Assembly: GCA_013215385.1 (NCBI GenBank)
Contig: JABSOY010000026.1
Location: forward strand, 1-52,900
DNA from: Colwellia sp.
GTDB lineage: Bacteria; Pseudomonadota; Gammaproteobacteria; Enterobacterales; Alteromonadaceae
Reading direction: 5' to 3'
DNA length: 52,900 nt
Shown: positions 34,278-45,246 of the stretch, in pieces
Layout of the letters: each line of letters opens with the position of its first letter
How positions within the stretch are numbered: the stretch's first letter is position 1
Program-made: the position numbers and the translations under genes
The notes under the pieces: generated by a model
Seen by the model: the letters and a program-made list of their open reading frames with translations, nothing else
Told to the model about the DNA's origin: nothing
Database searches by the model: none

Positions 34278-34781
34278 ATATTATATCCGGTTTAAGAGGT
34301 TGTTTTAGTTATTAAAGCGCTATTCAAATAACGTCTTATTATTATAAAACTTTATCATGACAGTTAAGAGATCGCTATTGTGTCATGCAATAATTTTAAA
34401 TTGCTTTAATCACTAACTTCCAGTGTTTTATTTAAGTTAATGAAGGTTAGAAGCGATTGATTAAGGTGGGAATGTAGACGTGAGACCACTGTATTCATTA
34501 AAAATTCAGTCTCTTAAATAGCGGTTAGTTGTACTGCTGGCGTTATGATTGCAGTCATAACCGGGCTCGTTAACCCGGATATATTGATCACTAAAAACGC
34601 TAGATCATATTTCTAATTTTCAATTAGTTGAATTTATTTCCCCTCTATAAGTTCAGTCAAATCACAATAATAATGCAAATGATAACCATTGTTATTTGTA
34701 TTGATCTTTTCATTACGTTTAGTTACCATTGGTTAATATCTTGATAACATTTAAACTTTTAATACAAATAGGTAGGAAATA
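34278..34781. promoter_or_regulatory. Divergent region between chemoreceptor and iron operon
   Basis: About 500 bases without a gene, carrying the minus-strand promoter of the chemoreceptor and the plus-strand promoter of the iron operon. A small stem, CCGGG (34561-34565) with CCCGG (34574-34578), lies in the middle. The main functional signal is the Fur-like site listed separately. No short gene is convincing. Confidence 0.4.
34678..34696 (+). promoter_or_regulatory. Fur box upstream of the imelysin / TonB receptor operon
   Basis: AATGATAACCATTGTTATT matches the 7-1-7 Fur pattern (TGATAAT-n-ATTATCA) at 11 of 14 positions and contains a perfect ATAAC / GTTAT inverted pair. It lies about 85 bases upstream of the first iron-operon gene, where a repressor would cover the promoter. 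The functions encoded downstream (imelysins, FecA-like receptor) are those expected of Fur control. Confidence 0.7.
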
Positions 34782-36149
34782 ATGAAGTTCGGTTCTGTAC
34801 ATAAAATAACAACAGCGATTTTACTTGCAAGTGCTTTAACAGCATGTGTTGACGATGGTGATGATGGTGCACAAGGTGTTGCAGGTATTGATGGTGCTGC
34901 AGGCGCTGCTGGTACTTCTGGTGTAAGTGTTTTTGTCACTCGTGACGATGTTGTTACCACTAATGCCAATATTGCTTATGCTGTATATTCAGACTCGTTA
35001 TTTGCTGCAATAACATTGCGCGATTCATTAGCTACATTTGTTACTACGCCAACGGCAGATAACTTTGTCGCAGCCAAAGAGTCATGGAAAGCATCACGTG
35101 AACCTTACGGACAAAGCGAAGTGTATCGTTTCCGTGGTGGTCCAATTGATACTAATGCTGATGGTAGCGAAGGCGGAGTTGAAGGTGCAGTTAATGCTTG
35201 GCCTTTAGGCGAGGCTGTTATTGATTATGTTGCAGGGCAAGTAGATGGCGATGATGGCATTGCTACTTTAGTTGGTACAAATATTATTGCGGGTACGGCA
35301 ACAATTGACCAAGATTTGTTAGAGGGATTATTCGAAAAGAATGGTGATGCTGATGTAACTACTGGCTACCATGCGATAGAGTTTTTACTGTGGGGTCAAG
35401 ATTTAAATGCAGACCAAACAGGTACAGGTACTAGAGATATGACTCCAGGTCAGCGTCCAGTAACTGACTATGCTTTAGATGGTGCTTGTACCTCTGGCTT
35501 GGGCAATACTGTTACTCCTGTAACTTGTCAACGTCGTGGTGAATATTTATTAGTTGCCGCTGATATTCTGATCAAAGATTTAAAAACTGTTGTTACTGCA
35601 TGGGAGCCACAAACGGGCAGCCATTATAAATCTTTTGTTGCTGGAGGTGATGACTCTCTTGGTATTATTTTGGAAGGAATGGGAAGATTAAGTTACGGTG
35701 AATTAGGCAGTGAGCGTATCAATATCGCTTTGATCAATAATTCACAAGAAGATGAACATTCATGTTTTAGTGATAATACCCATCGCGATATTTTCCTCAA
35801 TGCGAAAGGCGTACAAAATTCATTTAACGCTCAATACACCCGTATAGACGGTGAGGTGATCGAAGGCGCTTCTATTTATGACTTATTAGTTACTGAAGGC
35901 GAACATGAATTAGCGAATAAATTACGTGCTTCATTAGAAGCGACTATGTCAGCTGCTGCAGTTATCGATACAAAAGCAAAAACAGGTATGCCATTTGATG
36001 TGTTGACCGCGGTCGATATTGAACAGCCAAATGTTGTGGCAGTTATTGCTGGCTTAGTTGCGCAAACGGATGATATTGAACAGGTTATTGATGCACTTGG
36101 TGTTACTGCCGGTGACTTAAAACAAGATGGCAGCACAAACATCGAATAA
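34782..36149 (+). CDS. Imelysin-family iron-regulated lipoprotein with intact GxHxxE motif
   Basis: A 455-residue lipoprotein: signal peptide with lipobox LTAC, then a short collagen-like Gly-rich linker (GAQGVAGIDGAAGAAGTSG), then an imelysin (peptidase M75 / IrpA-like) domain. The family motif GxHxxE is present as GYHAIE with H197 and E200. Imelysins of this kind (IcmP, IrpA) are periplasmic or surface proteins of iron uptake; the peptidase activity once proposed is doubtful. A ribosome binding site (AGGAAATA) precedes the ATG. It heads the operon and is followed by a hairpin before the first di-haem gene. Confidence 0.9.
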   Translation: MKFGSVHKITTAILLASALTACVDDGDDGAQGVAGIDGAAGAAGTSGVSVFVTRDDVVTTNANIAYAVYSDSLFAAITLRDSLATFVTTPTADNFVAAKESWKASREPYGQSEVYRFRGGPIDTNADGSEGGVEGAVNAWPLGEAVIDYVAGQVDGDDGIATLVGTNIIAGTATIDQDLLEGLFEKNGDADVTTGYHAIEFLLWGQDLNADQTGTGTRDMTPGQRPVTDYALDGACTSGLGNTVTPVTCQRRGEYLLVAADILIKDLKTVVTAWEPQTGSHYKSFVAGGDDSLGIILEGMGRLSYGELGSERINIALINNSQEDEHSCFSDNTHRDIFLNAKGVQNSFNAQYTRIDGEVIEGASIYDLLVTEGEHELANKLRASLEATMSAAAVIDTKAKTGMPFDVLTAVDIEQPNVVAVIAGLVAQTDDIEQVIDALGVTAGDLKQDGSTNIE

Positions 36150-36183
36150 CACTCTGTATAGCATTTTTAGTATTCATTTATTC

Positions 36184-36204
36184 ATGGGCTCTTTAAGAGC
36201 CCAT
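36184..36204 (+). terminator. Intra-operon hairpin after the first imelysin gene
   Basis: ATGGGCTCTT (36184-36193) and AAGAGCCCAT (36195-36204) are perfectly complementary around one base, giving at least an eight-pair GC-rich stem with a TTTAA loop. The following TTTCCAGTTTC is only partly T-rich, so it likely reduces readthrough or stabilises the first cistron, giving more imelysin than downstream products. Confidence 0.5.
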
Positions 36205-36245
36205 TTCCAGTTTCAGAAACTTAATAAAAAGTAAGAGCACATACG

Positions 36246-37916
36246 GTGAAAGAGTTGATAAATAAAGTTGTTATAGTGATCTTTATTGCGAGCAGTTTAG
36301 GTGCGTGTGGTGGTAGTTCGAAGAGTAATGAGCCACCCGTAGTGATGCCCCCCGTAGTGGTGCCACCCACTCCTATAGTTGATCATAGTGGTTTAGCACC
36401 ATTATCCGCAGATATTATTTTAATCGAAGAATATTTAGCCGGGGGTGATGCCACCGTTTTTGTTGATAACCAAGATGCTTTTGGCACTCGTCCCGACTTA
36501 ATTAAGAGTAACTTTAAACAAGATGGTTTTTTCACCGCGGGAGATCACTTATTCCGCACGAAGCATACTGATATTGGACCATTACTCAATAATCCGGTTT
36601 GTCAAAACTGTCATATCAGTGACGGAAGAGGTGAGCTACCGGTATCAAAAACGCAACCAATGTTAACTATGTTACTCAAACTCGCTGATGAAACGGGTGC
36701 AGAAGATCCTATCTATGGTAATCAATTACAACCTTTTGCGGTACAAAGTTTTGATGGCGGTGATATTAATTTAGGGCTGGCTGTTTACGATGGCTCATTA
36801 AATGGTAATGAGTTAGTTGGAGAAGCAACACCATATATTGAATATGAAGCACTGCCGGGAACTTATCCAGACGGTAGCGCTTATCAGTTACGTTCACCCA
36901 TTTATCGAATAAAAGATCTTAGTTTTGGTGATTTTACCGACAACATCCGTTTTTCTCCTCGATTAGCACCAGCAATTTTTGGCGTCGGTTTATTAGAAGC
37001 AATACCCGCCGACAATATTCTGGCCTTGGTTGACGCATCAGATCAAGATAATGATGGTATTTCAGGGCGTGCTTCTATGGTTACTGATGCTATAAGCGGT
37101 GAAGTAATGCTAGGGCGTTTTGCCTATAAAGCGCAAAATCCAACAGTATTGCAACAAGTAGCAGGTGCCTACCAAGGAGATATGGGTATTACCACGAGTG
37201 TCTTTGGCGATGAACCATGCTCAGAGCAGCAGCTATCATGCAATTTTATCGCTGAACAAGAAATAAAAACTGCAGACAAAACCGACGTCAGTAACAAAGA
37301 ACTTGCGCTAGTCGAATTTTATAATCGAGTGTTAGGGGTCCCAGCTCGCCGTGGTTATGATACTAACAGTGAGCAGTGGCAAGATGATATTGCACTAGGG
37401 CGAAAGTTATTCTTTGAAGCAAATTGTGTCGGATGTCACACACCTCGGCATGTTACTGGCATAGCTGCAGGCAGTGTCTTAGGAGAATTAACTTTATTAT
37501 CTTTAGAGCCTGATGCTCAACCCATTGACCTTTTGTCAGGGCAAACCATTTTTCCTTATACAGATTTATTACTGCATGATATGGGCGGCTCTTGTACGGT
37601 AACGCGTGAAATGGTTGACGGTCAATTATGTACCGGAGGTGCACAATGTGAATATGTGCAACGTTGCGAAGGACTAGCCGATGATCTTATTCAAGGTGAT
37701 GCTGGTGGTACCGAATGGAAAACACCCGCTCTTTGGGGAATAGGCTTAACACAAATAGTGAATCCGCAAGCTACTTTTTTACATGATGGGCGTGCTAGAA
37801 CAATTGAAGAAGCCATTCTTTGGCATGATGGTGAAGCCAAAAATAGTAGAAATGCCTTTATGCAGTTAAGTCAAAGTGAGCGAGAGCAGTTATTACAGTT
37901 TGTTGAGTCTTTGTAA
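36246..37916 (+). CDS. Di-haem cytochrome c lipoprotein, DUF1111 family
   Basis: A 556-residue lipoprotein (lipobox LGAC near residue 20, then a Pro/Val-rich linker) of the DUF1111 di-haem oxidoreductase family, related to MauG-type peroxidases. Two c-type haem sites are visible: CQNCH (C119, C122, H123) and CVGCH (C394, C397, H398). The family-specific FAPxxFGxGLLEAIP pattern appears as LAPAIFGVGLLEAIP, and LHDGRARTIEEAILWHDGEA near the end (split: LHDGRARTIEEA, ILWHDGEA). It may oxidise or reduce iron or a protein partner during iron uptake; this is inferred. The GTG start at 36246 is tentative. The stop overlaps the next gene by one base. Confidence 0.88.
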   Translation: MKELINKVVIVIFIASSLGACGGSSKSNEPPVVMPPVVVPPTPIVDHSGLAPLSADIILIEEYLAGGDATVFVDNQDAFGTRPDLIKSNFKQDGFFTAGDHLFRTKHTDIGPLLNNPVCQNCHISDGRGELPVSKTQPMLTMLLKLADETGAEDPIYGNQLQPFAVQSFDGGDINLGLAVYDGSLNGNELVGEATPYIEYEALPGTYPDGSAYQLRSPIYRIKDLSFGDFTDNIRFSPRLAPAIFGVGLLEAIPADNILALVDASDQDNDGISGRASMVTDAISGEVMLGRFAYKAQNPTVLQQVAGAYQGDMGITTSVFGDEPCSEQQLSCNFIAEQEIKTADKTDVSNKELALVEFYNRVLGVPARRGYDTNSEQWQDDIALGRKLFFEANCVGCHTPRHVTGIAAGSVLGELTLLSLEPDAQPIDLLSGQTIFPYTDLLLHDMGGSCTVTREMVDGQLCTGGAQCEYVQRCEGLADDLIQGDAGGTEWKTPALWGIGLTQIVNPQATFLHDGRARTIEEAILWHDGEAKNSRNAFMQLSQSEREQLLQFVESL

Positions 37917-39433
37917 TGATAAAAATCAATTTGGTTTTTTATCAAACCATTACCACAGTAAAAGAAAGCGCTAAGTATCTAATGCTTCTTTTTGCTGTTT
38001 TCGCTTCGGGCTGCTCAGAAAATAAAGCGCCCGCCTTTCAGCAAAGTGAACTGTCTCCTGGCGGCACGATGACCGTAAAACGGTTACAAAGGCAAAGTTA
38101 TATCCATCCTGGAGCGGCAGTGAAAGGAATGCAAAAACTGAATTTTTGGACCGGGTTCTCATTTTTTAGAGATCCATGGGTTGCTTCACCCAGCTCAACC
38201 AAATCGCGAGATGGTTTGGGGCCATTATTTAATACCCGTTCATGTATTAGTTGTCATGATGCGGGCAGTCGGGGACCTATGGCTAAGGTTGGTGAAAGTA
38301 TGCCATCTTCCTTAGTTATTAAACTGGGTTTGCGTGATAAATCCAATGATATTAATTATCAGGAGACAGATTTAACGAAAAGTCTGACATTGGTCGATCC
38401 AAATTATGGCGATCAAATTCAGCCACGAGGTATATTGTTTAGACATCCGAAACTTGCACATGCGCCAAAAGGAGAAGCTCTGCTTAAGCTAAGTTACCAA
38501 ACCATTGATGGTCTTTATGCCGATGGGTCGAGTTATCAATTAAGTCAACCTAAATACCAACTAACTAAAATGGCCTATGGTGATTTAGCTGATCATATCG
38601 GTTTAACTCCGCGTTTTGCTCCTAATATTTTTGGTGCAGGTTTGTTAGATGCAATCCATGTCGACGACCTACTTGCCCAAGAAGACGTTGATGACAATAA
38701 CCAAGATGGAATTTCAGCTAAATACAACAGAGTAATGAATATTGCTACCGGTACGTTAGATATAGGTCGATTTTCATTAAAGGCGAAACACCCCACTTTA
38801 GCCCAACAAATAGCGGCAGCATTTCGTAATGATATTGGTATTACTAGTCGTTTATTTCCAACCGAGAGCTGTACTGAACAACAGATAATTTGCCAACAAA
38901 CCGCGCGTTTGGGGGAGTCATCAAATGAGCATAGTCATCAAGCTGCCTTCGAAATATCAGATAAATTATTTAACCTAGTAGTCAGTTTTAATCAGTTATT
39001 AGGTGTCCCGCCAGCTCGAAACTTAACGACAGAAAAAGTATCAAAAGGCCGTGAACATTTTTATCAACTTGGCTGCCAACAATGTCATACCCCAAGTTAT
39101 AGAACCGATAAGAACTATCCAGTTGAAGTTTTAGCCGATCAACTTATTTGGCCGTATAGCGATTTAGCATTACATGATATGGGAGAAATGTTAGCAGACA
39201 ATGTTAAAGAAGATGACGCGAACGGCCAAGAATGGCGTACACCACCCTTGTGGGGTATTGGTCTGCAAAAATCGACGACTAAGCAGCAACGATTTTTACA
39301 TGATGGTCGAGCTAATAGTATTAGTGAGGCCATTCTATGGCATGGCGGAGAAGCGGCGGTAGCCCAGAAAAAATTTACTCAGTTAACCGCGAATCAACGA
39401 CAAGAACTCGTTGAGTTTGTGCGAGCAATTTAG
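37916..39433 (+). CDS. Second di-haem cytochrome c lipoprotein, DUF1111 family
   Basis: A 505-residue paralogue of the preceding protein. A lipobox (ASGC, about residue 33) follows the N-terminal hydrophobic segment. Haem-binding sites are CISCH (C110, C113, H114) and CQQCH (C387, C390, H391). Shared blocks include FAPNIFGAGLLDAIH and FLHDGRANSISEAILWHGGEA (cited in parts: FLHDGRAN, EAILWHGG). Its start overlaps the upstream stop (TAATG), so the two are translated together and may form a hetero-oligomer. A pair of DUF1111 genes between two imelysins suggests a four-protein redox and binding unit. Confidence 0.88.
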   Translation: MIKINLVFYQTITTVKESAKYLMLLFAVFASGCSENKAPAFQQSELSPGGTMTVKRLQRQSYIHPGAAVKGMQKLNFWTGFSFFRDPWVASPSSTKSRDGLGPLFNTRSCISCHDAGSRGPMAKVGESMPSSLVIKLGLRDKSNDINYQETDLTKSLTLVDPNYGDQIQPRGILFRHPKLAHAPKGEALLKLSYQTIDGLYADGSSYQLSQPKYQLTKMAYGDLADHIGLTPRFAPNIFGAGLLDAIHVDDLLAQEDVDDNNQDGISAKYNRVMNIATGTLDIGRFSLKAKHPTLAQQIAAAFRNDIGITSRLFPTESCTEQQIICQQTARLGESSNEHSHQAAFEISDKLFNLVVSFNQLLGVPPARNLTTEKVSKGREHFYQLGCQQCHTPSYRTDKNYPVEVLADQLIWPYSDLALHDMGEMLADNVKEDDANGQEWRTPPLWGIGLQKSTTKQQRFLHDGRANSISEAILWHGGEAAVAQKKFTQLTANQRQELVEFVRAI

Positions 39434-39462
39434 TTTTAATTTAGAAATACCAGGAAATAAGC

Positions 39463-40641
39463 ATGAAAAATATCAAATCAATGAAATGTTTTTATCAGCA
39501 AGCATTACTTGTTGGCACACTCGCTCTAGGCGTCATTGGCTGTGGTGGCGGTAGCGGTGGCGAAACACAACCGGCGCCAGATATACCAACGACACCTACT
39601 ACGCCAAGTGGCACACTTGATGACCAGTTTACGTTATGGCTGACCGATTTAACTAACAAGGTTATTTTACCTAATTATCAAACTTTAGATGATGAAGCTA
39701 AGCAGTTTTCTGCTGATAGCTTGGCATTTTGTCAGTTAGATAATGCTAAGGCATCAGATTTAACTGAATTAAAAGTGGCTTGGCAGGAGTTAAATTTAGC
39801 TTGGCAGAGTATTCAATGGGTAAAAATCGGACCAATTCTCGAACACAACCGAAATTTCAGAATACAGTTGTGGCCAGACAGTCGGGGTTATGTTGTTCGG
39901 GATGTTGATAAGTTTTTACTGACACAAAGTACACTTGATGTAGATGCAGTCGCTAAAAGCAGTGTCAGTGGGCAAGGTATTCCTGCGCTTGAATACTTAC
40001 TTTATCCTAATTCAAACCAAGACTCTTTGCTTAACGCGGGCAATAAAATTAAGCGCTGTGAAGTCGTGATGGCGATCAGTGAAAACTTAGCCACTATAAG
40101 TGCAGAAGTCTTAGAGGCATGGCAGGTAACGGGTGGGAATTATATCGCTCAAGTTATTGGCGGTACTGGTGAGTTTACCAGTGTCAAAGATGCGGTCGAA
40201 GAAATTGTCACCAATTGGCTGGAACAAGTAGAACGAGTTAAAGATGAAAAAATGCTTGCCCCTTTAGCATCAGGTGCTCCAGGTATCCCCGCAATTACAG
40301 AGTTTTATTTAAGTGAACAATCATTAGTGAGTATTCAAGCAAATGTAAAATCGTTTCAGCAAATATACACTGCTGGCGATGGCCATGGCTTTGAAAAAAT
40401 ACTTGTTGAGTTTTTAGAGCAACCCGCAATTGCGACTCAAATGAACGATAGAATTGCTGCGGCAATCACAGCCACTGAAACCTTGTCAGGTTTATACGCA
40501 GAACTACTTAATAGTGATGATGGTCGGGTAATTATTGATAATAACATTCAAAAGTTACGCGATGTACGCGATATTTTATCTATCGACTTCATTCAAGCAA
40601 CTGATATTAATATTGGTTTTAATTCAAATGATGGTGATTAG
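39463..40641 (+). CDS. Second imelysin-family lipoprotein, GxHxxE histidine replaced by proline
   Basis: A 392-residue lipoprotein (lipobox IGC, then a Gly-rich and a Pro/Thr-rich linker) with an imelysin domain. The family motif reads GIPALE, with Pro174 where the first paralogue has His and Glu177 kept. This second imelysin type, with GxPAxEYLL, accompanies the His type in loci I recall from Pseudomonas (PA4370-PA4373, with DUF1111 and DUF1513 genes). It probably binds a different ligand or acts as a partner of the first. It lies 29 bases after the second DUF1111 gene and two bases before the TonB receptor. Confidence 0.86.
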   Translation: MKNIKSMKCFYQQALLVGTLALGVIGCGGGSGGETQPAPDIPTTPTTPSGTLDDQFTLWLTDLTNKVILPNYQTLDDEAKQFSADSLAFCQLDNAKASDLTELKVAWQELNLAWQSIQWVKIGPILEHNRNFRIQLWPDSRGYVVRDVDKFLLTQSTLDVDAVAKSSVSGQGIPALEYLLYPNSNQDSLLNAGNKIKRCEVVMAISENLATISAEVLEAWQVTGGNYIAQVIGGTGEFTSVKDAVEEIVTNWLEQVERVKDEKMLAPLASGAPGIPAITEFYLSEQSLVSIQANVKSFQQIYTAGDGHGFEKILVEFLEQPAIATQMNDRIAAAITATETLSGLYAELLNSDDGRVIIDNNIQKLRDVRDILSIDFIQATDINIGFNSNDGD

Positions 40642-40643
40642 CC

Positions 40644-42899
40644 GTGCAAAAATTTCCTTTAACTCAGTTAGGGCTCTTGTGTACATTTTTTCTGACTCAA
40701 ATGTCTATTACCGTTCAGGCAGAAGAGCTTGAGCGTAAAACAGACCAAGAGCAACAAAAAGCATCTAACAAGCAAAAAGAAAAACAGCTTGAAGTGATCA
40801 GTATTTTTGGCCAGCGCAATCAATTAAGAACAGCAACCGGCTCTGCATTTGTCGTTGACGAAAAAACGTTAGAGCAATTTGAATTTGATGATATTCATCG
40901 AGTATTACAATCTGTGCCAGGTGTTTATATTCGAGAAGAAGATGGTTATGGTTTAAGGCCCAATATTGGTTTACGTGGTGCAACGACAGAAAGAAGTAGC
41001 AAAGTTGCTATCATGGAAGATGGTATTCTCATTGCTCCAGCACCTTATGCTGCACCTGCTGCCTATTATTTTCCGTTGATGTCACGTATGACTCAGGTAG
41101 AAGTATTTAAGGGCCCATCAGCAATTAAATATGGTCCAAATACCGTGGGCGGTGCCATTAACATGCTGTCACGTCCTATTAACAGTGATAAAAAACCGCA
41201 GGCGAAGCTTGATTTAGCGTTTGGTCAAGATAAGTATCAAAAAGCGCATGGCTATCTCAGTCAAACAGCAACCCTTGCGGGGTATGGCGATTTAGGCTTC
41301 TTGATTGAAGGATTAACTATTAATTCTGATGGCTTTAAAGATTTAGATGGTGGTGGTGATACAGGTTTTAAAAAAAATGAGCTTATCTTTAAGGCTAATT
41401 TTGTTCCTAGTAATGCCTCGTATTATCAAATATGGCAGTTAAAATTGGGCTATTCAGATGAAGTTTCAAATGAAACTTATTTAGGCTTAACTGATGCAGA
41501 CTTTATTGAAAATTCTGAACGTCGTTATATCGCCAGTAAAAACGATAAGATGGATTGGGAGCATTATCAATTTCAGCTATCTCATTATATCGAAATAGAT
41601 GACCAAACTAGCCTTTATACCCAAGCTTACCATCGTGAATTTGATCGTGATTGGGACAGGTTAAATAGTTTTAATTCAAGTCGTAGCATGCAAACGATAT
41701 TAACATCTCCTGAAACCGGTATTAATGCTTTATTTATGGATGTATTAAAGGGCGAGCGAGATTCAACGACCTCGCAAGAAAATTTACTCTTTACTTTAAA
41801 TGACCGTCGCTATTATTCACAAGGTCTTGAAAGCAAATTATTGTGGGACAGTGAGTTGATGGGAGCTGATTTAGCTCTTGATGTCGGCTTACGTATTCAT
41901 CGCGATGAAGTGGTCAGAAATCATCGCGCCGACCAATATTTTATGCAAGCGGGTGAATTAGTTTTTGCTAATGAGCAGCAACAAACCACAACTCAGAATA
42001 AAGATACAGCGACAGCACTGGCGAGTTATGCCAATGCCAATTTAGATTTTGGCCAGTTTAATATTACTGCCGGTATGCGTGTTGAATATATAGAAGGTGA
42101 AAGCCATGACTATTTAACCGGAGAAAGACTAAGTTCTTCTGATACCGTTGTTATGCCTGGCTTAGGGGTTTTTTACCAAATAGATGAGAGTCTTGGTTTA
42201 TTGCTTGGTGTTAATAAAGGCTATGTGCCGAATAGCCCTGGTCAGGGCGATAATGTCGATCCAGAAGAAAGTTGGAATTATGAATTTGGTTTACGTTATA
42301 GCCAACAAGACCTTAGAGCTGAAGTTATAGGTTTCTATAACGACTACAGTAATCTAAAAGGCACTTGTACGTTTTCAAGTGGTTGTGAGCAAACATTAGA
42401 TGAAGAATTTAATGCCGGTGAAGTAAACGTTTATGGCTTAGAAGCAAGCTTTACTGCAGAGTTCGAATTAACCAGCGGATTAACTTTACCTATCAACCTA
42501 GCATATACCCACACTGAGTCGGAATTTCAGCATAGTTTTCAATCTAATTTTTCACAATGGGGTCGTGTTGAAAGTGGTGATGCCTTACCTTATTTACCAG
42601 AAAATCAAATAAGTATAGAGGTGGCACTTCAGCATGAGCATTGGCGTGCTGCTTTATTGTTAAAACATATAGATGCAATGCAAGAAGCCGCAGGTGATAA
42701 TACAGAACTAGCAGGGTTATGGACTGATGAAGTGCAACAGCTTGATTTTTCATCATGGTATCGATTTTCTGCTAATTTTAAAGTCTATCTTAAGCTTGAT
42801 AACTTAACCGACGAAACAGTTATTGTTTCTCGCAGACCTTTTGGGGCTCGACCGGGTAAAACAAGACAAACAACCATAGGTGTGAAGTTAAGCTTCTAA
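40644..42899 (+). CDS. TonB-dependent outer-membrane receptor, FecA-like
   Basis: A 751-residue receptor with a signal peptide ending near VQAEE, a TonB-box-like segment (EVISIFG), a plug domain (VLQSVPGVYIREEDGYGLRP shown in part: VPGVYIREEDGYGLRPNIG; then VEVFKGPSAIKYGPNTVGG), and a 22-strand barrel ending in a C-terminal aromatic (KLSF). The plug resembles FecA-type ferric-chelate receptors. The GTG start at 40644 lies two bases after the upstream stop, suggesting translational coupling. It would import a ferric chelate with TonB-ExbBD energy. The substrate is not readable from sequence. Its partners, imelysins and DUF1111, are in the same operon. Confidence 0.93.
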   Translation: MQKFPLTQLGLLCTFFLTQMSITVQAEELERKTDQEQQKASNKQKEKQLEVISIFGQRNQLRTATGSAFVVDEKTLEQFEFDDIHRVLQSVPGVYIREEDGYGLRPNIGLRGATTERSSKVAIMEDGILIAPAPYAAPAAYYFPLMSRMTQVEVFKGPSAIKYGPNTVGGAINMLSRPINSDKKPQAKLDLAFGQDKYQKAHGYLSQTATLAGYGDLGFLIEGLTINSDGFKDLDGGGDTGFKKNELIFKANFVPSNASYYQIWQLKLGYSDEVSNETYLGLTDADFIENSERRYIASKNDKMDWEHYQFQLSHYIEIDDQTSLYTQAYHREFDRDWDRLNSFNSSRSMQTILTSPETGINALFMDVLKGERDSTTSQENLLFTLNDRRYYSQGLESKLLWDSELMGADLALDVGLRIHRDEVVRNHRADQYFMQAGELVFANEQQQTTTQNKDTATALASYANANLDFGQFNITAGMRVEYIEGESHDYLTGERLSSSDTVVMPGLGVFYQIDESLGLLLGVNKGYVPNSPGQGDNVDPEESWNYEFGLRYSQQDLRAEVIGFYNDYSNLKGTCTFSSGCEQTLDEEFNAGEVNVYGLEASFTAEFELTSGLTLPINLAYTHTESEFQHSFQSNFSQWGRVESGDALPYLPENQISIEVALQHEHWRAALLLKHIDAMQEAAGDNTELAGLWTDEVQQLDFSSWYRFSANFKVYLKLDNLTDETVIVSRRPFGARPGKTRQTTIGVKLSF

Positions 42900-42911
42900 G
42901 GGATGATCATC

Positions 42912-44015
42912 ATGTTGTTAACCCGTCGGAAATTTTTAGCAGCCACCGCCGCCACGTGTGCTGCGGGGGCATTCGCTTTTGTTTCTAGTAGGAAAGCTGA
43001 TCAGTATTGGTTGGTCAGTGCAGCTACAGATAATAAAAATCAGCACTTTGTCAGTGCGATTGATTTACAAGGTCATGAGGTTAGCCGTATTTCTCTACCT
43101 GTACGTGGCCATGATGCTATTGATATAGCCGGGAAACCCGGTAGAGCAATAGTTTTTGCACGACGACCGGGCCTCTTTGCTTTTGAAGTTGACTTTATTG
43201 CCGGGCGAATTGTTCATCAAATAGAACCAGAGAAAGGTTATCACTTTTACGGACATGGCGTGTTATCAACGAAAAACAATAGTTTACTGACCAGTGAAAA
43301 TCACTATGGTACTGGTAATGGCTATATTATTGAGCGTGACTTAAGTAATTACCAAATTATTAATAGATATCGCTCTGGTGGAATAGGCCCTCACCAAATT
43401 GCCTTGATGTCAGATGAAGAAACTTTAGTTATTGCCAATGGTGGCATTAAAACTCATCCTGAACAGCCTAGAAAAAAATTAAATCTGCATTCGATGAAAC
43501 CAAATTTATCATATTTAGATGTAGTATCCGGAAAAATTATTGAACAGCATCAGCTTAACAATCCACAACTGAGTATTAGGCATCTTGCGGTTAGCGCAGA
43601 AGATAAAGTTATTGCCGGCCTACAATATCAAGGAACTAAAACAGATCTTGTGCCATTAGCTATTTCACATTTTCAGGGGGGGGCGTTGCAGTACTTAAAA
43701 GCACCAAACCATCAATGGCGGTCTATGAGTCAATATACGGCAAGTGTATGTGTTGATAACAAGAATGCTTTAGTCGCGATAAGTTGCCCACGGGCAGATA
43801 TGATTACTTATTGGTCTTTACATAATGACCGTTTTTTAGCAACGGAGCGCTTATCAGATGGTGCTGGTCTTGCTTATACAGATAAATTATTTGCGAGTAG
43901 TGGTAAAGGCCAAATTACTGAGCTAGCAAAAGGGAACACTTATTCATCAAAGCTTGTTTTTTCATTTGATAAGCTGCGCTGGGATAATCACATGTTAGCA
44001 ATGAAAATTAGTTAA
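42912..44015 (+). CDS. DUF1513 protein with Tat signal
   Basis: A 367-residue exported protein (from ATG 42912) that starts MLLTRRKFLAATAATCAAG, a twin-arginine signal (TRRKFL), and then has a beta-propeller-like DUF1513 body (GHDAIDIAGKPGRAIVFARR, cited at 20; then HFYGHGVLS and a GIGPHQI turn). DUF1513 genes accompany imelysin and DUF1111 genes in other bacteria, supporting a shared iron role; the reaction is unknown. AAGGG (42898-42902) is nine bases before this ATG and directly abuts the ATG at 42903, so I prefer the later one. It is the last gene of the operon; a Fur-like site follows 13 bases after the stop. Confidence 0.85.
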   Translation: MLLTRRKFLAATAATCAAGAFAFVSSRKADQYWLVSAATDNKNQHFVSAIDLQGHEVSRISLPVRGHDAIDIAGKPGRAIVFARRPGLFAFEVDFIAGRIVHQIEPEKGYHFYGHGVLSTKNNSLLTSENHYGTGNGYIIERDLSNYQIINRYRSGGIGPHQIALMSDEETLVIANGGIKTHPEQPRKKLNLHSMKPNLSYLDVVSGKIIEQHQLNNPQLSIRHLAVSAEDKVIAGLQYQGTKTDLVPLAISHFQGGALQYLKAPNHQWRSMSQYTASVCVDNKNALVAISCPRADMITYWSLHNDRFLATERLSDGAGLAYTDKLFASSGKGQITELAKGNTYSSKLVFSFDKLRWDNHMLAMKIS

Positions 44016-44027
44016 AATAAACATACA

Positions 44028-44073
44028 AATGAGAATGATTTCTATTTACATTGTAAAAAAGGTTTGTTATTAT
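44028..44073 (+). promoter_or_regulatory. Fur-like site overlapping a strong sigma70 promoter
   Basis: AATGAGAATGATTTCTATT (44028-44046) resembles Fur boxes of the AATGAGAATGATTCTCATT type. It overlaps TTTACA (44045-44050), a five-of-six -35 box, followed after exactly 17 bases by TATTAT (44068-44073), a five-of-six -10 box. Fur binding here would block the promoter. No protein-coding gene follows on the plus strand until 45979; the transcript would run into two terminators at 44189-44251. Confidence 0.6.
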
Positions 44074-44080
44074 TCTTTTT

Positions 44081-44221
44081 GTTGATTGGCCCCCCAAGTC
44101 ATCGATGTTTGGAATAGTAGAAAACTTAAGTTACACACTTTTGTATCGTTTAACCCATATTATTTTGGGTGTATTATCTCCTCCAGATAAAATGATGTTT
44201 GCGCAAAGCATCATTTTTATT
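44081..44221 (+). ncRNA. Putative Fur-controlled small RNA
   Basis: A gene-free interval of about 140 bases from the predicted start (about 44081) to a strong intrinsic terminator. Single-stranded candidates for target pairing are GGCCCCCCAAG (44088-44098) and TCTCCTCC (44177-44184), the latter complementary to a Shine-Dalgarno sequence. The 3' end is a stem (AAAATGATG with CATCATTTT, and an inner TTT/AAA) with a short T tail. This is the general plan of an iron-stress sRNA such as RyhB or PrrF. I see no sequence similarity that I could name to either, so homology is not claimed. Confidence 0.5.
44189..44221 (+). terminator. Intrinsic terminator of the putative sRNA
   Basis: AAAATGATG and CATCATTTT pair, with an inner TTT-GCGC-AAA stem-loop and one bulged G, followed by TTATT. 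The A run on the left arm makes it partly functional from the minus strand as well. Confidence 0.7.
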
Positions 44222-44251
44222 AGGCTCTATGTAAATAGAGCCTATTTTTTT
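44222..44251 (+). terminator. Second hairpin terminator before the CysG-like gene
   Basis: AGGCTCTAT (44222-44230) and ATAGAGCCT (44235-44243) form a perfect nine-base-pair stem with a GTAA loop, followed by seven T (44245-44251). It backs up the preceding terminator for plus-strand transcription and protects the convergent minus-strand gene that ends at 44281. Confidence 0.8.
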
Positions 44252-44280
44252 GCTTAAATTTTAATTAGATACCTGATTGT

Positions 44281-45246
44281 TCAATCAGCACAAATAAGCT
44301 GTTTTTTTCTTATGGTACTTAATAATAAGGCAGAGTTTTCTGGTAATTGTGCACAGCCGGCGAGTAGATAAATAACTTTTTGTCCTTTTTCTGATAAATC
44401 TAAGGCATGCTGAAAATTGACCATAATAGTCGAGCAGATACTTTGCGGGTATTTATCGGCATCACGTCTTATATATTCTAATAAATCACTGTTAACATTT
44501 TCATCATAAAATACCGCATCTGCAAATTGCATTTCGCGATGGATTTGCAGTGTTAATTTATCTGGATTACCTGTTTTAGTATGAACAAAGACTATCTCTC
44601 CCTGCGGAGGTGGAACTTCGTTTTTTAAAGTAGTTATTAGCTGTTGCTCAGCCTGAAAATGGTCACCATCTAAGACAGCTTCGCCTATAGTGCCACGCAA
44701 TGTATTTTCCCAGAAGGTACGGCGGTTACGTAAACCTTTCACTCTGGCTTTAACATGATCGCGAAATTTAAACGAAAACTCCGCTAGCTTGCCATAATTA
44801 TTTGGCAGCACTTTTTCAATTTGTTCCCTTAGCATTCTTAAAAGTATTGGCGCAGTACCTGAACTACATATTGCGATGATCATCGGGGAACGATCTATAA
44901 TTGCTGGCGTTATATAAGTACAAAGTTCGGGTTGATCAACAACATTGGTGAGGATATTGAGTGGTTTGGTTTCTTCAGAAACCGCTTTATTTACCGAGCG
45001 ATTGTCAGTGGCTGCAATGACTAAATTAATATTCGCTAAATGACCACTTGTGTAATTATGTGCTAACCAAGGTAAATTGTGTGATTGAATCAAGCGATGA
45101 ACACTGGGGGAGACACTTTCAGACATTACTACAATGTTTGCTGTGGTTTTAAGCAATAATTCAATTTTACGAGCAGCGACGTCACCACCACCGATCACCA
45201 TGGCTGAAATGTTTTCAGCATCAAGGAAAATGGGGAAATATTTCAT
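44281..45246 (-). CDS. CysG-like siroheme protein: intact dehydrogenase/chelatase, truncated methylase domain
   Basis: A 321-residue protein. Residues 1-150 match the precorrin-2 dehydrogenase / sirohydrochlorin ferrochelatase part of CysG (Met8-like): NAD-binding VIGGGDVAARK, D104 in NVVDQ aligned with the catalytic Asp of E. coli CysG, and the SSGTAP loop with S128. The next part, 150-215, matches the CysG dimerisation region. From 216 it resembles the start of the uroporphyrinogen methyltransferase domain (GEIVFVHTKTGNPDKLTL against a GAGPGDPxLLTL type), but the GGDP motif reads LAGCAQLP and the protein ends about 135 residues early. Full CysG is near 457 residues. SAM-dependent methylation is therefore unlikely, and a separate CobA-type enzyme would be needed for siroheme. 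Confidence 0.82.
   Translation of the reverse strand: MKYFPIFLDAENISAMVIGGGDVAARKIELLLKTTANIVVMSESVSPSVHRLIQSHNLPWLAHNYTSGHLANINLVIAATDNRSVNKAVSEETKPLNILTNVVDQPELCTYITPAIIDRSPMIIAICSSGTAPILLRMLREQIEKVLPNNYGKLAEFSFKFRDHVKARVKGLRNRRTFWENTLRGTIGEAVLDGDHFQAEQQLITTLKNEVPPPQGEIVFVHTKTGNPDKLTLQIHREMQFADAVFYDENVNSDLLEYIRRDADKYPQSICSTIMVNFQHALDLSEKGQKVIYLLAGCAQLPENSALLLSTIRKKQLICAD

Follow-up and report, generated by a model that had tools for sequence, protein, structure and literature searches.

A candidate Fur-repressed small RNA gene, similar in layout to RyhB, between an iron operon and the siroheme-synthase gene of Colwellia

Results and Discussion

We propose that positions 44027–44251 of contig JABSOY010000026.1 from a Colwellia sp. 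(the source genome below) are probably the gene of a trans-acting small RNA (sRNA), about 170 nt long, which Fe-Fur would repress and iron scarcity release, and which may pair with sodB; positions are those of the window, by which we mean the whole 52.9-kb stretch of DNA analysed. RyhB is the textbook iron-sparing RNA. Comparative genomics gives good support to a RyhB-like sRNA under Fur repression, and the most likely reading is that it works like RyhB, though by the covariance-model test made it is not a member of the RyhB family. An earlier note on this DNA had put forward such an RNA, with GGCCCCCC as a C-rich seed and an end near 44221; its central idea is supported by selective conservation, compensatory changes and counterparts in two other genera, while that seed and that end are not.

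In iron-replete cells, Fe-Fur would sit on the putative site at 44027–44047 and repress the promoter. When iron is scarce, repression would be lifted for the RNA together with the iron-uptake operon ending just upstream, and the RNA would be made from about 44080 and ended by the intrinsic terminator. CUCCAGA and its flanking bases could then pair with the Shine-Dalgarno and start region of the sodB mRNA, which would lower synthesis of Fe-superoxide dismutase and so save iron, in the manner of RyhB in E. coli.

The locus and its parts

As read from the sequence, the candidate gene lies between an iron operon and the convergent siroheme-synthase gene (Table 1). The operon runs in the order imelysin, two di-haem oxidoreductases (DHOR), imelysin, TonB-dependent receptor and DUF1513; spacing and strand suggest that these genes form one transcription unit, the first of them starting downstream of a Fur-like site. 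The DUF1513 coding sequence holds a run of eight Gs (43676–43683), kept in the relative MAG DT_21, which is a possible slippage site.

Table 1. Features of the candidate locus and its surroundings, in window coordinates
Feature	Position	Strand	Sequence, basis or remark
Fur-like site ahead of iron operon	34672–34696	+	overlapping matches AATGCAAATGATAACCATT (14/18) and AATGATAACCATTGTTATT (15/18)
Iron operon (putative)	34782–44015	+	six ORFs, Pfam matches above cut-off
Fur-like site over -35 hexamer	44027–44047	+	AAATGAGAATGATTTCTATTT; 19-mer core AATGAGAATGATTTCTATT at 44028–44046
Sigma-70-type promoter TTTACA-17-TATTAT, extended -10	44045–44073	+	sequence and conservation
Proposed sRNA, start inferred, about 170 nt	44080–44251	+	identity to two relatives
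Predicted 5' stem-loop	44079–44105	+	folding; loop holds part of the C-run
Proposed pairing block	44177–44187	+	TCTCCTCCAGA; CTCCAGA (44181–44187) complements sodB TCTGGAG
Hairpin 1	44189–44217	+	covariation over five sequences
Hairpin 2 and T-run, intrinsic terminator	44221–44251	+	stem 44221–44244, T7 to 44251
Siroheme synthase, CysG N-terminal type, convergent	44281–45246	-	PF13241, PF10414, TIGR01470
RraA	45370–45858	-	minus-strand gene beyond siroheme synthase

The single-sequence features that the earlier note had listed are where it placed them. The Fur-like 19-mer is present and overlaps the promoter, with TTTACA at 44045–44050, TATTAT at 44068–44073 and, in addition, a TG one base ahead of the -10; no plus-strand gene follows directly, siroheme synthase and RraA both being on the minus strand; and the gene-free stretch contains the C-run GGCCCCCC (44088–44095) and the C/U-rich block TCTCCTCC (44177–44184). 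The strong hairpin named as the end also exists, but there are two, and the second, which is the stronger (44221–44244), carries the RNA with its T-run past 44221 to 44251. Two hairpins imply a transcript of about 170 nt, or of about 140 nt if it stops at hairpin 1, and the T-run behind the terminator would fit Hfq binding. The 5' stem-loop is predicted in the source genome and, in similar form, in DT_21; the C. hornerae fold differs there.

The gap 44016–44280 is without a gene, and its plus-strand ORFs of at least 20 aa are of 34 and 50 aa. The idea that the region is a short mRNA from which the longer frame (44105–44257) is translated is hardly credible: the frame is open in the source genome, but it crosses both terminator hairpins and the region carries indels in C. 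hornerae, on which grounds the small-protein reading was dropped. In addition, no Shine-Dalgarno sequence was seen ahead of the frame, and the changes in hairpin 1 are compensatory.

Taken by themselves, the promoter signals are modest. Scored against two forms of the Fur consensus, the site matches one at 14 of 18 positions within 65 bases (P about 0.005) and the other at 13 of 19 (P 0.039), and equal or better Fur-like sites exist elsewhere in the window. Within a 4-kb region there are 14 promoter-like matches, about as many as chance predicts (13.2), and 14 terminator-like ones, which is above the 2.8 expected. The feature stands above chance because of its conservation, not because of single-sequence scores. 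It is thus very improbable that mere coincidence in an AT-rich gap accounts for the promoter and Fur-like site, a view with which the promoter count and a Fur score P of only 0.005–0.04 would agree, but against which stand site-specific conservation and the recurrence of both elements at the same place in other genera. Elsewhere in the source genome, on contig C27, the frames of an ArsP_2-type exporter and a metallophosphoesterase are some 670 bases apart, and the gap opens with a strong Fur-like site inside TTGACA-17-TACTAT (L002, 1501–1532); this site may belong to another Fur-controlled leader or RNA.

Conservation in two close relatives

Five other Colwellia genomes were compared, and the stretch 44027–44251 is present in two of them, Colwellia MAG DT_21 (G005) and Colwellia hornerae ACAM 607 (G004). 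As a yardstick we used 4-fold coding sites pooled over the two flanking genes; RNA identities were counted over 44079–44251, and p values are from Fisher tests against those sites. In DT_21, where 164 of 241 4-fold sites are identical to the source genome, the RNA is identical at 164/174 positions (p 7.5e-12) and the Fur-like site at 21/21 (p 4.7e-4), with 6/6 for the -35, 11/12 for the extended -10 and 30/30 for the terminator (44222–44251). Less kept are the other spacer bases (5/11), the bases after the operon's last stop (6/11) and those after the terminator (19/29).

C. hornerae is more distant (100/226 4-fold sites identical), and its RNA is nonetheless identical at 122/174 positions (p 1.7e-7). 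Identity extends to the 5' part of the RNA (41/63, p 0.003) and is highest over 44175–44221 (41/47) and the terminator (30/30); the middle of the RNA is at 14/39, the -35 at 5/6, the extended -10 at 10/12 and the other spacer bases again at 5/11. The Fur-like site is degenerate there (12/21), not above background (p 0.18), so that it is selectively conserved in one of the two relatives, DT_21. DT_21 retains the C-run, but C. hornerae has lost it and reads GACCAACA, so that a role as a conserved seed is not supported. From the pattern of identity in both relatives we infer that selection tracks the components expected of an sRNA gene.

A 3' module in five Colwellia genomes

Two further Colwellia genomes (G001 and G002) hold, by eye, the 3' module only in the gap before the siroheme gene, namely CTCCAGA, hairpin 1 and a differently sequenced terminator, following a di-haem oxidoreductase frame. 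DUF1513 gave no match in either at E <= 1e-10, and the model R2 described below gave no Fur/promoter unit in either at E <= 1. The block of G001 that corresponds to the pairing block reads TTTCTCCAGAA. CTCCAGA is invariant in the five genomes, and since it overlaps TCTCCTCC, the latter, which the earlier note had read as a Shine-Dalgarno complement, is the better seed candidate.

Hairpin 1 has 12 pairs, four of them with double changes, and over the five sequences 91.7% of cells are paired, compared to 43–62% in a control in which the partner strand was slid. On four of five measures, the covariation score among them, 1 shuffle in 500 did as well; on the fifth, the number of further pair types, 444 of 500 did, which is unremarkable. 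Aligning relatives for covariation of terminator and seed, a check suggested earlier, thus gives compensatory changes for hairpin 1 and a loss, in C. hornerae, for the C-run. CTCCAGA is unpaired in the predicted fold of C. hornerae and partly paired in that of the source genome, with predicted costs of opening the block of 0.3 and 5.3 kcal/mol.

The 3' module raises the question of whether the conserved element is mainly the 3' UTR and terminator of the iron operon, with a weak internal promoter and any regulatory RNA a 3'-UTR product. We consider this unlikely for the source genome and its two relatives, since all three have kept the two hexamers and the RNA's 5' part but not the spacer, and since the unit of a genome from another genus (G026, below) begins, by eye, past a seemingly separate terminator. 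It is favoured by the operon's own Fur-like site and by G001 and G002, which have CTCCAGA, the hairpin and a terminator after the di-haem oxidoreductase frame without the R2 unit. An operon tail, which the earlier note had named as the finding that would speak against an sRNA, may be the true description in these two genomes, where the 3' element ends the operon without a Fur-like promoter.

sodB as a possible target

sodB and sdhC are classical RyhB targets. The sodB ribosome site reads TTTCTGGAG in the source genome, DT_21 and C. hornerae, and the TCTGGAG within it is exactly complementary to CTCCAGA in these three species, which have the full RNA. The match was spotted by eye once the invariance of CTCCAGA had been noted and was scored afterwards, against a background of 351 gene starts of the source genome (heuristic calls from 400 kb plus the window). 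TCTGGAG occurs within 30 bases upstream of only one of these other starts. A 26-nt block of the source RNA is predicted to pair with sodB at -14.7 kcal/mol, in a duplex spanning the Shine-Dalgarno sequence to the start codon, which 2 of the 351 equal or beat when -35 to +5 is considered, and 7 for -80 to +40. The DT_21 RNA forms nine consecutive pairs with its sodB; with the best window across that block, sodB is stronger than every background gene in DT_21, and nine genes are as strong in C. hornerae.

When all windows along the RNA are scanned, sodB does not stand out: 50 of the 351 genes are as good in the source genome, 17 in DT_21 and 86 in C. hornerae. For the counterpart RNAs described below the counts are 171 (G003), 141 (G113), 187 (G026), 77 (G101) and 69 (G180), the last three being the genomes of genus g22 that the scan covered (G161 and G133 were left out). 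Thus the pairing with sodB is a lead only, and that sodB is the target is a tentative proposition, to which we give somewhat less than even weight. When RNAs and sodB sites were cross-paired between genera, the cognate pair was preferred in several rows, though not cleanly, the element of G180 reaching -16.7 with the Colwellia sodB. As this preference is unclean and the scans of G113 and g22 are not significant, we do not claim co-variation of RNA and sodB across genera.

Two other candidates were rejected. With the first 60 nt of the RNA, 282 of the 351 genes match the strength of sodB, which disposes of GGCCCCCC or the 5' end as the sodB seed. Pairing with sdhC is unremarkable in the block test and in the scans; its value for G003 is void, as the frame used (MADSKASLSIDG) looks like another gene.

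NCBIfam places the superoxide dismutase of the source genome in the Fe type with a score just over the cut-off, and one Fe/Mn-SOD gene was found in that genome. Repression would therefore leave the cell no such enzyme, and full repression would be costly. In G180, a second SOD gene (L153) is closely preceded by TTGATAATTGTTTTTATTTGC, which resembles a Fur site, as would be expected if this were a Fur-repressed Mn-SOD.

Counterparts in other genomes and genera

A similar arrangement is found in G003, also a Colwellia, and in G113, from another genus, where a Fur-like site comes 10–17 bases past the DUF1513 stop and is followed by a promoter, a stretch without genes and a terminator. The bodies of these units are unrelated to the source RNA and share a common 5' end, ACTTGATGG. 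A third case, G026 from yet another genus (g22), was found via its Fur-like site. A model built from G113, G026 and G003 (R2) gave seven strong matches in 395 genomes of the bacterial family, these being the three building sequences and four others, all of g22. The unit is thus present in all five sampled g22 genomes and stands before the siroheme-synthase gene in each; a TonB-receptor-type frame lies upstream in four, while G101 has a 338-aa frame in between (domains were run for G026). In G113 the siroheme gene ends about 190 bases past the R2-matched stretch.

At E <= 1, 384 of the 395 genomes have some R2 match, and the loci inspected below the top seven are, by eye, mostly Fur-like sites before genes. 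To the source locus R2 matches over the Fur site and promoter part only (20.4 bits), and the counterpart bodies do not align with the source RNA. The model R1, applied under stricter filters, matched nine of the 395 genomes at E <= 0.1 (three full RNAs, the two 3' elements of G001 and G002, and four weak matches), which restricts full-length homology to 3/395. BLAST matches below about 46 bits, apart from those named, were taken as chance or Fur-site matches.

A survey of DUF1513 gave 38 loci, of which 33 were compared (L044–L048 were left out) and, L070 being without a frame, 32 were read by eye. The unit follows straight after the DUF1513 stop in five: the source genome, DT_21, C. hornerae, G003 and G113. 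L061 and L077 have Fur-like 19-mers (14/19) further on, that of L077 before a gene, and are not in this count. A survey from the siroheme gene covered 24 loci outside Colwellia, 23 of them readable (L143 has a 47-base flank), and found, by eye, one similar arrangement (L139, in G425). In this genome, of genus g62, the siroheme gene has a Fur-like site next to it (1188–1257), after which comes CTTGATG, a sequence that the counterpart RNAs also carry; in G265, of the same genus, strong Fur-like sites lie beside the siroheme gene (L138, near 1105).

In all, nine genomes from three genera have such a unit adjacent to the siroheme gene, namely those of g1 (source genome, DT_21 and C. hornerae), g63 (G113) and g22 (five), a number that is not a frequency, since these genomes were found through the unit or its flanking genes. 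By their place and promoter, the counterparts may be one gene by descent. That the siroheme gene stays beside the unit in three genera might also suggest that the transcript acts mainly in cis on that gene, by antisense read-through or collision, lowering siroheme, an iron cofactor, at iron scarcity. This is improbable: a strong terminator precedes the siroheme gene, selection reaches into the RNA's 5' part, more than interference in cis would by itself require, and in G003 the siroheme gene is some 2 kb from the unit. Between the two in G003 (L088) lies, by eye, a frame for a PEP-CTERM-like protein.

The g22 counterpart RNA (L100 and L102–L105, near 1500–1800) is strongly conserved, 231–238 nt long in the four measured, and highly structured by prediction (consensus energy -65 kcal/mol). 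A block identical in all five, CTTTCCGGGAGTACG, could pair with the sodB ribosome site; the whole-RNA scan was not significant.

Returning to a trans-acting sRNA as the preferred reading, a wider and doubtful extension is that in this bacterial family a new family of Fur-repressed iron-sparing sRNAs stands in for RyhB, tied to the site between operon and siroheme gene, its body rewired fast and its sodB-pairing block kept, the sRNA gene in Colwellia having arisen from the 3' UTR of a Fur-controlled operon or being on its way back into it. The case would offer a concrete proposed interaction with sodB, and an operon 3' end that has a Fur-type promoter of its own in some species and lacks one in others.

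Comparison with known RNAs

No Rfam family matches at its gathering score in the window or at the counterpart loci. Permissive searches gave sub-cut-off matches that were set aside, to SCARNA24, DUF3800-I, PrrF and rli40 in the window and to DUF3800-I, GcvB and five others at one g22 locus. The RyhB model (RF00057) is absent among matches at E up to 5 in 43960–44300; under stricter filters it has no match in the 47 genomes sampled from this family of marine bacteria, and has one in 9 of 31 from the order's other families (five above the cut-off). In a family whose sample gave no RyhB match, a Fur-type sRNA at a recurrent site would show the same solution reached with unrelated sequence. In the open-licence literature on Colwellia or Alteromonadales and sRNA, Fur, RyhB, iron or siroheme, we recognised no report of this RNA.

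The candidate has the sequence layout of the class of Fur-repressed iron-sparing sRNAs, with a promoter and Fur-like site, no conserved ORF and an intrinsic terminator. PrrF of Pseudomonas is a Fur-repressed iron-sparing sRNA, as the candidate putatively is, but the locus scores 15.3 bits with the PrrF model (RF00444), below its gathering score of 90. sRNAs derived from 3' UTRs occur in Gram-negative bacteria; the candidate resembles them in that its 3' part recurs where the iron operon of G001 and G002 ends, and differs in the Fur-type promoter in the gap in the source genome and DT_21 (the Fur site being degenerate in C. hornerae).

RyhB pairs with sodB mRNA, with a role for Hfq (PMC8544716), and occurs in Shewanella (PMC8891985). 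Like RyhB of E. coli, Vibrio and Shewanella, the candidate would be a stand-alone gene that has a terminator with a U-run, a putative Fur-type promoter and a predicted, still tentative pairing with the sodB ribosome site; unlike RyhB, it is about 170 nt long, has other neighbouring genes and lies at a locus without an RF00057 match. IsrR of Staphylococcus is Fur-repressed, 174 nt long and has C-rich stretches modelled to pair with the Shine-Dalgarno regions of target mRNAs (PMC9410917). It is Gram-positive and has three conserved C-rich regions, whereas here one C-run is not conserved; the candidate would resemble it in its putative Fur-type control, in its length and in the proposed setting of a C-rich stretch against a Shine-Dalgarno sequence.
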